A stretch of DNA of 64,000 nucleotides from Amphiura filiformis (lineage: Eukaryota > Echinodermata > Ophiuroidea > Amphilepidida > Amphiuridae). The DNA lies in the NCBI RefSeq assembly GCF_039555335.1, contig NC_092637.1:43664990-43728989 (forward strand), in the 5' to 3' direction. Shown piece by piece: positions 10,690-58,325 of this stretch. Within the stretch, counting starts at the first letter, position 1. Each line of letters opens with the position of its first letter. The position numbers and the translations under genes are program-made. The notes beneath the pieces are model-generated. The model worked only from the letters and a program-made list of their open reading frames with translations. It was not told the origin of the DNA and did no database searches.

Positions 10690-10804
10690 ATAGTGACAAT
10701 TTATAGTCAACTGTTGTTCGGTACTCTGTATTGTTCATAACGATATCACAACAAACACATACATAATTTTCTTTTGTTCATATTTTACTCATACACTGAC
10801 ACTT

Positions 10805-11475
10805 CGTCGGCTGTATTTCATAGTGGCGTATAGTGGGGCACTGCGAATAAACAGCTTTTCGAGAAAATCGGGTTTGAAGAAATGCCAATTTAAAATCGAG
10901 TTGTGTAAATCAGACATTCATTATATTTTGTAAATTATGTGAAATTTCTGTAGTAAACTAAATAGATTTTATTTTTATATATTTTTCAAAAGAAATAAAG
11001 GCACAATATTACTGGCAAAATGAAAACAATAAGTACAAAACTATACGTCACTATGGAAAACACACAGAACGCAATACCCTAACCTAACGTTGACCGTACG
11101 CCACCTACCGTACGTGTATTCCCTTTACTTTTCGTCGGCTTCATTCCATAGTGGCGTATAGGTCCGATACGTCACTATGGAATGTAGCGAGGTGTACGCC
11201 ACTATGACATGCAATGTTTTTCATTTTTGCCGATATTTCTTAATTATAAAATGTGTATAAAGGGTGCCGTATGGTCGATACGCCACTATGGAAAACACAA
11301 AAATTCATTTTGTAACGATACGCCACATTTAATTAATTAATTATAATTAAATAGTTATTAATTAATTAGCTAATTTTGACTGCTTAGACTTAGAAAAAGG
11401 AAAGAGAACATCATTAAAAACATATGTGCCCATTTAAAAAAAAATGACCAAAAATCAATGGAAATGCAGCCGACG
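10805..11475. mobile_element. MITE with repeated CACTATGG motif
   Basis: Ends CGTCGGCTGTATTTC and GAAATGCAGCCGACG (inverse). The motif TACGYCACTATGG occurs about seven times in both orientations (near 10820, 11043, 11150, 11169, 11195, 11278 and 11318), which looks like an array of protein-binding sites. A truncated copy of the left end lies at 19316-19345. No coding capacity. Confidence 0.75.
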
Positions 11476-12162
11476 AGCTTATTGAAAGAACAAAAATACA
11501 AACGTCACATTTGGTAAAATTATGCTACACACCGGTGGTGCCTATAATTAATTTCCACCGGTGGTGCCTATAATTAATTTCCCGAGTATCTAGTCTAGAA
11601 TCGACTATATAGATTTCATGTATGTGTACATTTTCTCCTTTCTATGAAGACTGAAAACCTGCGATAGAAAACAGAACATAACCAAATTAATTATTATTAC
11701 TATATCACTTTTTTGGCGCATCGGTACTGGATTCGACTCACGCAAAAGTGTGGCCGAGGATGCCATGCCCAGTTTAAGACCATTTGTAAACCGACTATAT
11801 ACGCCAGTTTAGTTCGGAGACCAGGTTGGTGGTACGCATCCAATTCGACCAAACATAACCATTAATTAATTAATTATGTCATCCGAAGATCCCATTTTTG
11901 TCACCAAATGCTGTTTACCATCACAAACGATGACAAATAATCCCTCTTTATGTTGGAGTAAAAGTAAAACATTATTATTTACTGAAAGGGCCTCATTTGC
12001 TTAATGTTTGTTACCAATAAGTCTTTTTAAGTATCTAAAAGTAAGACCTTTATTTAGCACTAGTTCGGAAGTGTCTAATGCACTCATACGACATTTTCAT
12101 ACATGAGTATCCTCTGGCAAAATAGGACACGTTGTAAAATGTTTTTAGTTCGTTGTATTACC

Positions 12163-15100
12163 TTAACATGCTAGAACTTCAAACCGCATACAGATATCAC
12201 CATACCAAGCTGTGGGCCGAATTCTAATGAATGACGCACGAACCGGAGAAGGAAACAATGCAAGAACTACTGTACTTGAATCAGTGTTTCCATCAAACAC
12301 CTGCAAATTTTCAAACAGCAAAATTAGAAACCAATTATTTCATAGAATTTCATAGTTTTAGGGCTTCCCTTTAATTTAGTGCTCTTTGAGCACTATTGGG
12401 TATTGCCTGTGCTTTTTGCCAAATGTTATAAATAAGTAGTTCAGCACCTCTCAAGCTAATTATTTACATTTATTCGCCCATTATAATCTTATCAAACATC
12501 AATCAATAATCACCCGATATTAGACGATGGCAATTTTTTTGTAAGTTCTAGAAATATGCGCAAGTGGCTATATTATTTGTTTACCCTTTATTGGCTTAGT
12601 TTATCCGGTAATATGTCTTACAATACAACCAATCCTGACCAGAAAAGCATACATGACTCGTTTCGGAGCATGTCTTCTAATTGATTTATAGAAGAAGCTT
12701 TATTTTCCTGGTATTAGGCAGGTCCACTAAAAAGTAAAGTATTTTTAAATTGATGAAAGAAACATTTTGGCGTTTAAATAATCTTAATCGGACGTTTCAT
12801 TCCAGAGATATGGCCTTTCGAGTGTCACGGTTTTATATAGGGCTGCTAGAACATCTTAAAAAAACACACCAGAAAGTGCAATTTTAAGGTACTTTTTCTA
12901 AAATTTATTTATTAACTAGCGTTATCTGGAACAATATATTTCCTTATAACAACTTGAAATAAGATCATCCTGAAAATTTAAGCAATTTTGTTAACACACA
13001 ACAAAAAATATAAGACCTCAAAACCCATGGTTTGTTTGGTGGAACCTCAAGCATGATCATAGATGGCCGCCATGGAAAATATTTCCATAGAGAAGCTGAA
13101 CAATAAGTGCATTATTTTAAATGAATAGCGTTTTTTTGCATTTTACATCCTATTTTGGTCGGTTAATGGGTACTTATGTGACGACGACACAAAATATAAA
13201 ATTTCAAGGTCAAAGGTCATCTCATTTGCATAATAATGGGCGGCCATCTTGGATTTGGGGTACATGTAAATCCCAGAGTTTCTTGGGAAAACGATAAGCT
13301 ATTTGAATGATTTTTTTCTTCAATACATACAATAAAGTATGTTACAGTGCGTAACAGAGCACTTTTTTGAGATTTTAACACTTCAAGTGTCATTTTTAGG
13401 TGCGAAAATCAAAAAATTGAAATGTTGGCCAAATCGGGCAAAATTTCAAAACATATCGTACCGCCACAAAAAAAAATGGAGTACAAATTGCCAAAAAGGC
13501 TCTGTTACGCACTGCAGTGTGGTTACCAGAAGAATATGTCCGGATTAAAACTTACAAAAGACACCATTTTCTGGAATATATGGTTTCCTCCCCCCTTAAA
13601 CATTGTTAGATCTTTTAAGGTCAGCACATTTTATCTTCAAAAATGATTATATTTCATCATGATATAAGTTTGGCAACATTAATCACTACCAATTTTGAGA
13701 AATTGCTCCAACTCAAAGGTTATCTTTACTACATTGAGCAATATACTGTATGTGCATGGAGGCCATGTTGGGTAGCATATCTAAAATGGACATGGTGGTC
13801 AGAAGTGCAAAATTTGAGATGGGATTTGGAAGGCTTAAACATTCTTTAATTTCTTCTGTCTTCAAAAATAGTTAAATTTTATGACTATGTAAGTTTGCTT
13901 GTCTGAATCAATCCAAATTCGGAGATAATTGCGTTTCAACACCTGATGCACAGAAGGGTGTCACTTCAACCTGCTGTAGTTCTCATCTCATTACATTAAA
14001 AAAAAAAAGTTGATCCCTTGATAAAGGAAGGTCCTCTCTATTTACTGACCAATCAGGATATAGTTTGGTTAATGTTTTTTGGTAGACAACCAGCTGTGTT
14101 AGGTCTAAATTGGGCCAATGCAAATACTACATGCCATTTATCAGGTCTGGGACTTCCTGCATTGAGCTGTGTTTGCATAGACAATACATGGGTGAGTGCA
14201 CACATACAATAAATGGGAAACCGTTCTAGTAGCAAATGTATTGACAGTGGACATCCCTACTATTATAGCGCGTTGGCATAGTAAGCATATAAAATGGCCT
14301 AGACTATAAACTTGTATGCCTAGAGACTACGGCAAGGTTACGCATAACCAACATGGTGTATTCACCATAACTAAAAGGATAGTGATTCCTTAGCACAGCT
14401 AATCCTAGACTACGAATTATTCTTACACGTGGTCTAGTCGAAATCAGGCAAATTTCGCTATTATGTGCGTGTCTGTTGAACCCTTCGATGTTTTCTTCTC
14501 ATATAAAACGTGGTTTATTTTGTCCCAACATTCATTTTGTAGCTTAGATTAAAAAGTATAATCATGGGTAATTTCAATATCCTGACATATAAGATAACAG
14601 AGCTGTGATGATGAAGGTAAAACTTTTTTAATTACCCTCTTATTATCATTCTTGTTGTTATTATTAAATTGAACGTAAAACTGATCAACTGGACTCACTT
14701 TTATTTGACCTGTGACAAGGTGGTGTTGCCAGAGGTCGTAGATCTTGAATCGAACTACTTAGGAATGTTCTTGATGACATAATTGTAGGCCCCTGCCAAG
14801 TTATGGCGCAGACCTCCTCCCCTGTTAGGTAAGGTTGTTCCTTCTTAACGTGGATTGCTTCCTTGACGCCCCTTTCAAACCACCTGCATTCTCTATTATT
14901 GTTGTCACAACATCATTGTTGTCAAAAGTGTGATTTGTACTTTTCAAATGCGTGAACACGGCCGATGCCCGCAACCAGTACTAGCACGTCTATGCTGGTA
15001 CATGCATTTGGCTAATGTCTGTTTGGTTTCCCCTATGTCAAAGTCCTGGCAATCAGCGTCCTTGCGTTGTATTGCGTAAACTAAATTGCTTTGTTTGTCT

Positions 15101-56873: not shown

Positions 56874-57145
56874 GGGACGCACCATTAGATACTCGGGGGG
56901 TAGGAAGTTGGGGTCGGGGAAGAAATTTTTTTCGCCGCCAAAGGCGACGATGTTTTGTTTTTTTGCCGCCTTTGGCGGCAAGTTTTTTTTTTTTTTCATG
57001 CATTTATACACAGTTAGGTGGGGAAGGTTTTTTTTTTTTTTAGTGTTGGTGGGGAAAGTTTTTTTTTTTTTTTTGCTCATGTAGTGGGGAAGTTTTTTTT
57101 TTGGAAAAACTTCCTACTCCCCCTGAGTATCAAATGGTGCGTCCC
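56874..57145. mobile_element. PIF/Harbinger-like MITE with T-runs, copy 2
   Basis: 272 bp, TAA on both sides, ends GGGACGCACCATTAGATACT and near-inverse ending GGTGCGTCCC. Same T-run/CGCCGCC architecture as copy 1 but shorter. The phenylalanine- and lysine-rich frames over both copies are artefacts. Confidence 0.85.
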
Positions 57146-57638
57146 TAAGAGTCTTTTTGTCAGCGAGTGCTTTAATTGTTAGCAATTAAGATAGGGATAA
57201 TTCACTGAGCAGGGTGCATTAGTCAAGATAATCGCACGAAACCGTAGACCTCATAAACAGTTTGTGTAGTCTTTTATAATAAATTTGTATGCAACTGCCC
57301 CCGAAATTTACACAAATAACTGATAGCTTATATTATCCAAGTTTCGGAATTTACAGAAATATTATCCCATCTCGAAAAAATTTAAAAACTGTGCGCTATT
57401 TTATAAAATGTGCATTTTGTGCAACTGAATTTGTATACGTTGTGTGCATTCATTTAGAATCAGCTGAATACAAAAATGGCAATTAAATTAAACGGTTTGA
57501 CATTGAAGAAAACCATACCCTTCAAAATAAATCCAATTAACTTTTTCTTTCCCGATTATATATAACGTTGTGTGTATTCATTTAGAATCAGCTTATAATA
57601 ATACAATAATACAAATTAATCAATGGCAATTCAATTAA

Positions 57639-58296
57639 GGGCTGGGGTATGAACGTTTGGACAGTATTTATTTTGGGACACTAGAGCACATCAGACATAT
57701 CGAATTGCATTCTGAACATGAAGAATGTCATTCCGATATCAAATAATTTTGATTTTTTGAAATTCGCAATTTAATACACATTTTATGGCAAATCATTAAA
57801 ATTTATATTTTGATATTTAACAGTACTTGAAGTAAACTTTATAAATCTGATGATTTATACTTAAAGTGTATGTAGGTGGGATGAAAAGCCGACGATCAAT
57901 TGAAAATTTTGACCTTTCGTATTAAAGATATGGATTTTTTTCCCAAAACACCAAAAAAAATTAGGTCTTTTGGGAAAAAATCCATATCTTCAATATGAAA
58001 GGTCAAAATTTTCAATTGACCGTCGGCTTTTCCTCCCCTGCTACATACACTTTAAGAATATATCATTAGATTTATATAATTTACTTCGAGGACTGTTATA
58101 TATCAAAATTTGAAAAATATCAAATTTTTATAATTTGTCATAAAATTTGTATTATATTGTGATTTTTAAGAAATAAAAATTATTTGATATCAGAAAGACA
58201 TGCTTCGTATTCAGAATGCAATTCGATAGGTCTGAGGTGCTCTCATGTCCCACAAAAAATACTGTCGAAACGCAATAAACGCTCATTTTGGATCCC
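57639..58296. mobile_element. TTAA-flanked long-TIR element, copy 2
   Basis: 658 bp, near-identical in plan to 36491-37149. TTAA at 57635-57638 and 58297-58300. The empty site AATTCAATTAAGCGGC survives in units 1 and 2 (about 23491 and 41010), confirming duplication of TTAA on insertion. Confidence 0.88.
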
Positions 58297-58325
58297 TTAA
58301 ACGGGTTGATATTTAGAAGGTAAAT

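Follow-up and report, generated by a model that had tools for sequence, protein, structure and literature searches.

A tandem array of three genes predicted to encode secreted double F5/8C proteins in the brittle star Amphiura filiformis

A 64,000-nucleotide stretch of the Amphiura filiformis genome (contig NC_092637.1, positions 43,664,990 to 43,728,989, forward strand; hereafter the window) carries three tandem genes with F5/8C domains, all located on the minus strand. The three exon sets were found by tblastn analysis of the window with F5/8C exon peptides. Leader exons were sought as open 76-nt exons starting with ATG, encoding a hydrophobic core and followed by GT; the window contained nine matches, three of which are leader exons with near-identical peptides. 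A first-pass annotation of this DNA had proposed three such genes with identical exon lengths, and the gene models agree with it in detail. Exons measure 76, 401, 139, 344 and 138 nt in all three genes, the introns are in phases 1, 0, 1 and 0 as predicted, and every intron is of the GT-AG type. Each spliced coding sequence (1098 nt with the stop) encodes the expected 365 amino acids (aa), without internal stops in any copy. The gene models, in window positions, are the following.

53131..53206, minus strand: gene 3 exon 1, initiator ATG and leader resembling a signal peptide (25 codons + 1 nt)
50324..50724, minus strand: gene 3 exon 2, bulk of the first F5/8C domain, including the internal 60-bp duplication
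49461..49599, minus strand: gene 3 exon 3, C-terminal part of F5/8C domain 1
47987..48330, minus strand: gene 3 exon 4, bulk of F5/8C domain 2
45365..45502, minus strand: gene 3 exon 5, C-terminal part of domain 2 and stop codon TAA
36271..36346, minus strand: gene 2 exon 1, initiator ATG and leader resembling a signal peptide
34901..35301, minus strand: gene 2 exon 2, bulk of the first F5/8C domain, including the internal 60-bp duplication
34523..34661, minus strand: gene 2 exon 3, end of domain 1
33147..33490, minus strand: gene 2 exon 4, bulk of domain 2
30185..30322, minus strand: gene 2 exon 5, C-terminal part of domain 2 and stop codon TAA
19167..19242, minus strand: gene 1 exon 1, initiator ATG and leader resembling a signal peptide
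18197..18597, minus strand: gene 1 exon 2, bulk of the first F5/8C domain, including the internal 60-bp duplication (Tandem Repeats Finder (TRF) row 18323-18447)
17779..17917, minus strand: gene 1 exon 3, end of domain 1
16435..16778, minus strand: gene 1 exon 4, bulk of domain 2
12163..12300, minus strand: gene 1 exon 5, C-terminal part of domain 2 and stop codon TAA

The donors of exons 2 to 4 read gtaagt, gtaaga and gtaagg in all three genes. Acceptors are (t)gtag or tgcag at exon 2, cacag at exon 3, acag or atag at exon 4 and tgcag at exon 5. The donors of exon 1 (gtaatg, gtaatg and gtattc) lack the usual G at +5, and gene 2 has an out-of-frame ATG 16 nt upstream of its start codon. Conserved sequence precedes the start codons (19243-19300, 36347-36410 and 53207-53270). 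It contains a CAG that could serve as an acceptor, and a noncoding 5' exon may therefore lie further upstream.

Pfam domain PF00754 was detected twice in each protein (E-values of 1.4e-49, 1.2e-49 and 5e-52 for the three products), with bit scores of 167.9, 168.1 and 175.8 against a curated cut-off of 28.2, which places all three products in the F5/8C family. In the PDB, the best matches were neuropilin-1 and factor V, with full-length similarity to their F5/8C domain pairs (E-values of 1.6e-52 and 2.7e-49). The first 25 residues comprise a hydrophobic core, with 10 of 12 residues in one segment; by our reading of the -3,-1 rule, cleavage would occur after residue 24, and the proteins are predicted to be secreted. 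Each would fold into a pair of discoidin jelly rolls, with the disulfides Cys30-Cys204 and Cys209-Cys365 closing the domains at their ends, and these four cysteines are present in all three proteins. The total number of cysteines is odd in every case (7, 7 and 9 in proteins 1, 2 and 3), with Cys242, Cys248 and Cys357 varying among copies. At least one cysteine per chain is thus left without an intrachain partner, so that disulfide-linked dimers are possible. Putative N-glycosylation sites (NxS/T) are found in the gene 2 product only, at positions 221 and 355, and the RGD, LDT and LDV motifs are absent from all three proteins.

Of 156 aligned residues, 86, 91 and 92 are identical between the two domains of the gene 1, gene 2 and gene 3 products, respectively (55-59%). 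Each domain has a phase 1 intron ahead of it and is split by a phase 0 intron just before (V/A)FDGNTD. The equal intron places and phases, together with the identity between sister domains, point to an older internal duplication of a two-exon module. The order of events read from the exons thus places the internal domain duplication first, and the gene copies derive from later duplications of the unit.

Intact frames had been taken in the first-pass annotation as a sign of selection on the proteins, and codon analysis supports this view. Codon maximum likelihood on the three sequences gave a ratio of nonsynonymous to synonymous change (dN/dS, omega) of 0.404, with twice the log-likelihood difference (2dlnL) from omega 1 reaching 23.46. 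The comparison between copies suggested at that stage returned pairwise omega values of 0.38, 0.37 and 0.25, all below 1, and no frameshifts; the corresponding Nei-Gojobori estimates are 0.171, 0.167 and 0.194 for dS and 0.065, 0.062 and 0.048 for dN. No coding indel separates the three copies. At the rate observed in alignable noncoding blocks, 1095 nt would be expected to show 18.2, 24.0 and 30.0 gap openings in the three pairwise comparisons. Under simulated unconstrained change of 0.08 per site, a stop-free frame was kept in 3% of 2000 runs, and the mean number of residue differences was 61.7, against the 37-50 observed per pair. The absence of indels is stronger evidence of constraint than the omega-type comparisons. 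Together these data show overall purifying selection on the reading frames, which is uneven along the protein. When exons were fitted alone, omega was 0.275 for exon 2, 0.221 for exon 3 and 0.205 for exon 5, each rejecting omega 1 (2dlnL of 15.96, 7.19 and 11.45). Domain 1 and exon 5 are therefore conserved (omega 0.2-0.28), and exon 4 is not clearly constrained.

We consider it likely, from these sequences, that the locus holds a three-member tandem family of intact protein-coding double F5/8C genes, whose products would act as extracellular binders. Some results weigh against this interpretation. Exon 1 taken alone does not reject omega 1 (omega 0.356, 2dlnL 1.95), and exon 4 fitted alone has an omega of 0.987 and shows no constraint. 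With shared branch lengths, omega is 0.62 in exon 4 and 0.31 in the rest (2dlnL 8.1, p = 0.0044), a contrast that concerns one of five exons chosen after the table had been seen; the gap between 0.99 and 0.62 arises because dS is low in exon 4 (0.10-0.16). In addition, noncoding divergence (0.065-0.124) is below dS, and dN (0.048-0.065) amounts to about half to three quarters of this divergence, so that constraint looks weaker by this measure. Noncoding divergence is probably below dS because only well-kept blocks can be aligned. A partly functional array, in which just one or two copies work and the rest are recent pseudogenes whose frames are still open, or duplicates with poor expression, would fit the exon 4 omega near 1, the odd cysteine numbers with different cysteines gained or lost in each copy, and the upstream ATG of gene 2 with the weak exon 1 donors. 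We regard it as improbable, since no copy has a stop or a frameshift, exons 2, 3 and 5 each reject omega 1, and the branch lengths are alike (0.150, 0.127 and 0.117), with no copy standing out as released from selection. Every copy may still work, as the first-pass annotation proposed.

The copies differ at 65 of 365 residues, 28 of which fall among the 114 residues of exon 4. When loops were placed by alignment with factor V C2, 14 of 29 loop residues of exon 4 were variable versus 14 of 85 elsewhere in the exon (Fisher p = 0.001). In domain 1, 4 of 28 loop positions vary, compared with 10 of the 85 other residues of exon 2 outside the insertion. The loops of domain 2 are the main place of copy differences, and domain 1 is the conserved half. 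Diversification of binding loops in domain 2 is a lead and not a result. Positive selection could be acting on these loops, as it does in lectins of immunity or gamete recognition, with a different ligand for each copy. Residues 232-259 have an omega of 1.31 versus 0.34 elsewhere (2dlnL 17.0 over one omega, for a block picked post hoc), with 12 codons varying in residue and two varying synonymously only; the loop enrichment in exon 4 points in the same direction, the loops having been placed after the data were seen. However, the block is not significantly above omega 1 (2dlnL 0.83), model M2a brings no gain over M1a, and correction for the search leaves p-values of 0.079 for a 28-residue cluster and 0.107 for a multi-scale scan. 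Positive selection is therefore a doubtful explanation at present.

The relationship between genes also changes along the coding sequence. Among 120 exon columns with one odd gene (six three-base columns excluded), the identity of the odd gene depends on the exon (chi-square 23.7, permutation p = 0.002). It is gene 3 in exon 1 (5/6) and exon 2 (19/42), gene 2 in exon 3 (9/15) and gene 1 in exon 4 (22/43). Near exon 1, identity between genes 1 and 2 reaches 97% (329 bp), and either gene is 84-87% identical to gene 3; near exon 4, genes 2 and 3 are 91% identical. A different odd gene by exon fits gene conversion or unequal crossing-over between units. The mosaic signal obtained with 150-bp flanks (chi-square 125) was set aside, since gene 3 has non-homologous flanks at exons 1 and 2.

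An uncommon detail of domain 1 is its 60-bp insert. In all three genes, the 20-residue insertion of this domain is a tandem in-frame 60-bp copy in exon 2, listed by TRF in gene 1. The two halves of the duplication share 50, 47 and 45 of 60 bases within genes 1, 2 and 3; between genes, 57-58 of 60 bases agree among the first halves and 53-55 among the second halves. Six of the 20 inserted residues vary among copies. In the second half, both Trp (TGG) positions read TGC and TGT in every gene, giving Cys97 and Cys107, and the pattern in domain 2 and in the family suggests that the change went from Trp to Cys. The duplicated segment probably forms an extra loop pinned by a predicted Cys97/Cys107 pair, and Cys codons at both Trp positions suggest an extra, private disulfide. 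More tentatively, and with little confidence, we propose that a new disulfide-pinned arm arose by self-duplication of a segment with Trp codons and single-base Trp to Cys changes before the array was formed. This arm would provide a contact surface or dimer interface, and the diversifying loops of domain 2 would form a variable recognition head beside a conserved anchor head.

The duplicated units were delimited by the outer limits of the blocks matching other units.

10677..24768, minus strand: duplicated unit 1
29049..44051, minus strand: duplicated unit 2
44161..58300, minus strand: duplicated unit 3

The limits of 10690-58320 given earlier for the array correspond to these units (matching blocks from 10677 to 58300), and the coding exons extend from 12163 to 53206. 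Nucleotide hidden Markov models of the exons (E-values up to 1, over the whole window) found three copies of each, the other matches being the corresponding sister-domain exons, and no additional exon or remnant of a longer array was detected in the window. As far as the window shows, the array is complete. Marine invertebrates can be highly heterozygous, and copies lying side by side could in principle be misassembled alleles of a single locus. This is very unlikely here: there are three copies and not two, dS is 0.17-0.19, different exons favour different gene pairs, and the units carry unlike repeats, with kilobase-sized insertions, a reverse-transcriptase fragment and different tandem arrays. 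With such dS values and repeats, the recent expansion described in the first-pass annotation is recent in a relative sense only. What it reported as massive intron decay amounts to the ordinary divergence of intron DNA.

Several known proteins resemble the array products in part. Like neuropilin-1 b1b2 and factor V/VIII C1C2, they have two consecutive F5/8C domains with terminal cysteines, and neuropilin-1 and factor V are the top PDB matches over both domains. Here, however, the F5/8C pair makes up the entire protein, and the exons encode no CUB domain, A domain or transmembrane part. Compared with factor V, domain 2 lacks the two spike 1 tryptophans, and domain 1 contains the 20-residue insertion. 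Lactadherin (MFG-E8) chains also match the array proteins in PDB. Lactadherin and EDIL3/Del-1, both secreted, end in two F5/8C domains and also carry EGF-like domains and an RGD motif; the array genes encode no EGF-like domain, and RGD is absent from their three products.

Sea urchin nectin is described as a secreted adhesive protein made of a leader and F5/8C domains only, with sister domains 47-55% identical and a suggested dimeric state (PMC10057474). The array proteins share this composition and have a similar identity between sister domains (55-59%). Unlike nectin, for which the same source reports 984 aa, six F5/8C domains, an LDT motif and one domain without any cysteine (PMC10057474), they have two domains, no LDT in any of the three, and cysteines at both ends of both domains. 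The gene 3 Cys242-Cys248 pair was compared with the Cys pairs of nectin (spacing of 6), whose positions were not placeable in the domain, and nothing is claimed from it. Retinoschisin (RS1) is presented as a small secreted discoidin protein with a terminal intradomain disulfide, a single F5/8C domain and an octamer-forming Rs1 segment (PMC4728063); the array proteins differ by their two F5/8C domains and the lack of an Rs1 segment. F-type lectins, including oyster bindins, are reported to have a related jelly-roll fold, tandem domains and loops that diversify in isoforms, with the fucose motif HX24RXDX4(R/K) (PMC5712786). Unlike these, the array proteins match PF00754, and none of the three has the motif, even with a spacer of 20-30 residues. 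Searches of viral (three pattern matches) and prokaryote (88) collections, neither of which contains animals, gave no match confirmed by tblastn. Phage records contained no match to gene 2 exon 2. With no animals in these collections, none of these results carries much weight. No tandem double-F5/8C family is named in the titles or abstract openings of the papers listed in literature searches; the slash in F5/8 is unsearchable, and we do not take this to mean that none has been published.

For factor V C2, the exposed hydrophobic residues of the spikes are given as W2063/W2064 and L2116 (PMC11257402). These residues are from human factor Va, and the step from human to bovine numbering is our own. 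The spike 1 Trp pair aligns in domain 2 to Ala234-Lys235 in genes 1 and 3 and to Ser-Gln in gene 2, and the spike 3 Leu region of bovine factor V C2 faces a gap. At the spike 1 position, domain 1 also has no Trp and is two residues shorter than domain 2. The exposed spike residues typical of phospholipid-binding C2-type discoidin domains (factor V, factor VIII and lactadherin) were thus not found. The lack of the Trp pair makes membrane insertion of the factor V type by domain 2 less likely, and a glycan or protein ligand would be likelier by elimination. The proteins could be lectins, and nectin-like adhesion or immune recognition is possible. They may work as two-headed extracellular binders, in which the loops at the domain ends would join a glycan or protein ligand to a surface or matrix partner. 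On our best reading, these paralogs would be a small group of extracellular recognition or adhesion proteins whose genes partly recombine with one another.

This is probably a known kind of family, an ordinary small set of extracellular binding or adhesion proteins, and lineage-specific tandem families of secreted recognition proteins are common enough to make the array unsurprising in itself. If true, the split between a conserved domain 1 with its insert and a fast-changing domain 2 would offer a clean case in which to test how discoidin domains acquire contact loops and whether selection drives the divergence of binding loops between paralogs.

The array is flanked by two intact open reading frames (ORFs). 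A single-exon rhodopsin-family G protein-coupled receptor lies at 5412-6542 on the minus strand (PF00001, E-value 1.1e-27), and a Sulfotransfer_5 ORF at 60845-61723 on the plus strand (PF19798, E-value 1.4e-9). Rfam and tRNA scans of the window were empty. A second gene inside the unit was considered for the plus-strand ORF 24021-24329 and rejected, as its counterpart at 41992-42184 is 92% identical but has a broken frame, and Pfam returned nothing. Weak translated similarity to this ORF (E-value 0.027) was observed at 62488-62584, perhaps an old repeat shared by flank and unit. The reverse-transcriptase fragment lies in gene 1 intron 4 (15562-15963; PF00078, E-value 3.6e-8) and resembles a Penelope-type element. 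Most of gene 3 intron 4 is occupied by a 60-bp minisatellite (45598-47731) of about 32 copies with 97% match and a variant tail, which is open on both strands in places. Upstream of gene 2, a 146-bp tandem array with a 292-bp higher-order period extends over 37604-38752. Long trinucleotide runs of 27 to 55 copies are found at 23664-23772, 30833-30997, 33022-33119 and 58324-58404, one of which stops 28 bp short of the low end of gene 2 exon 4.

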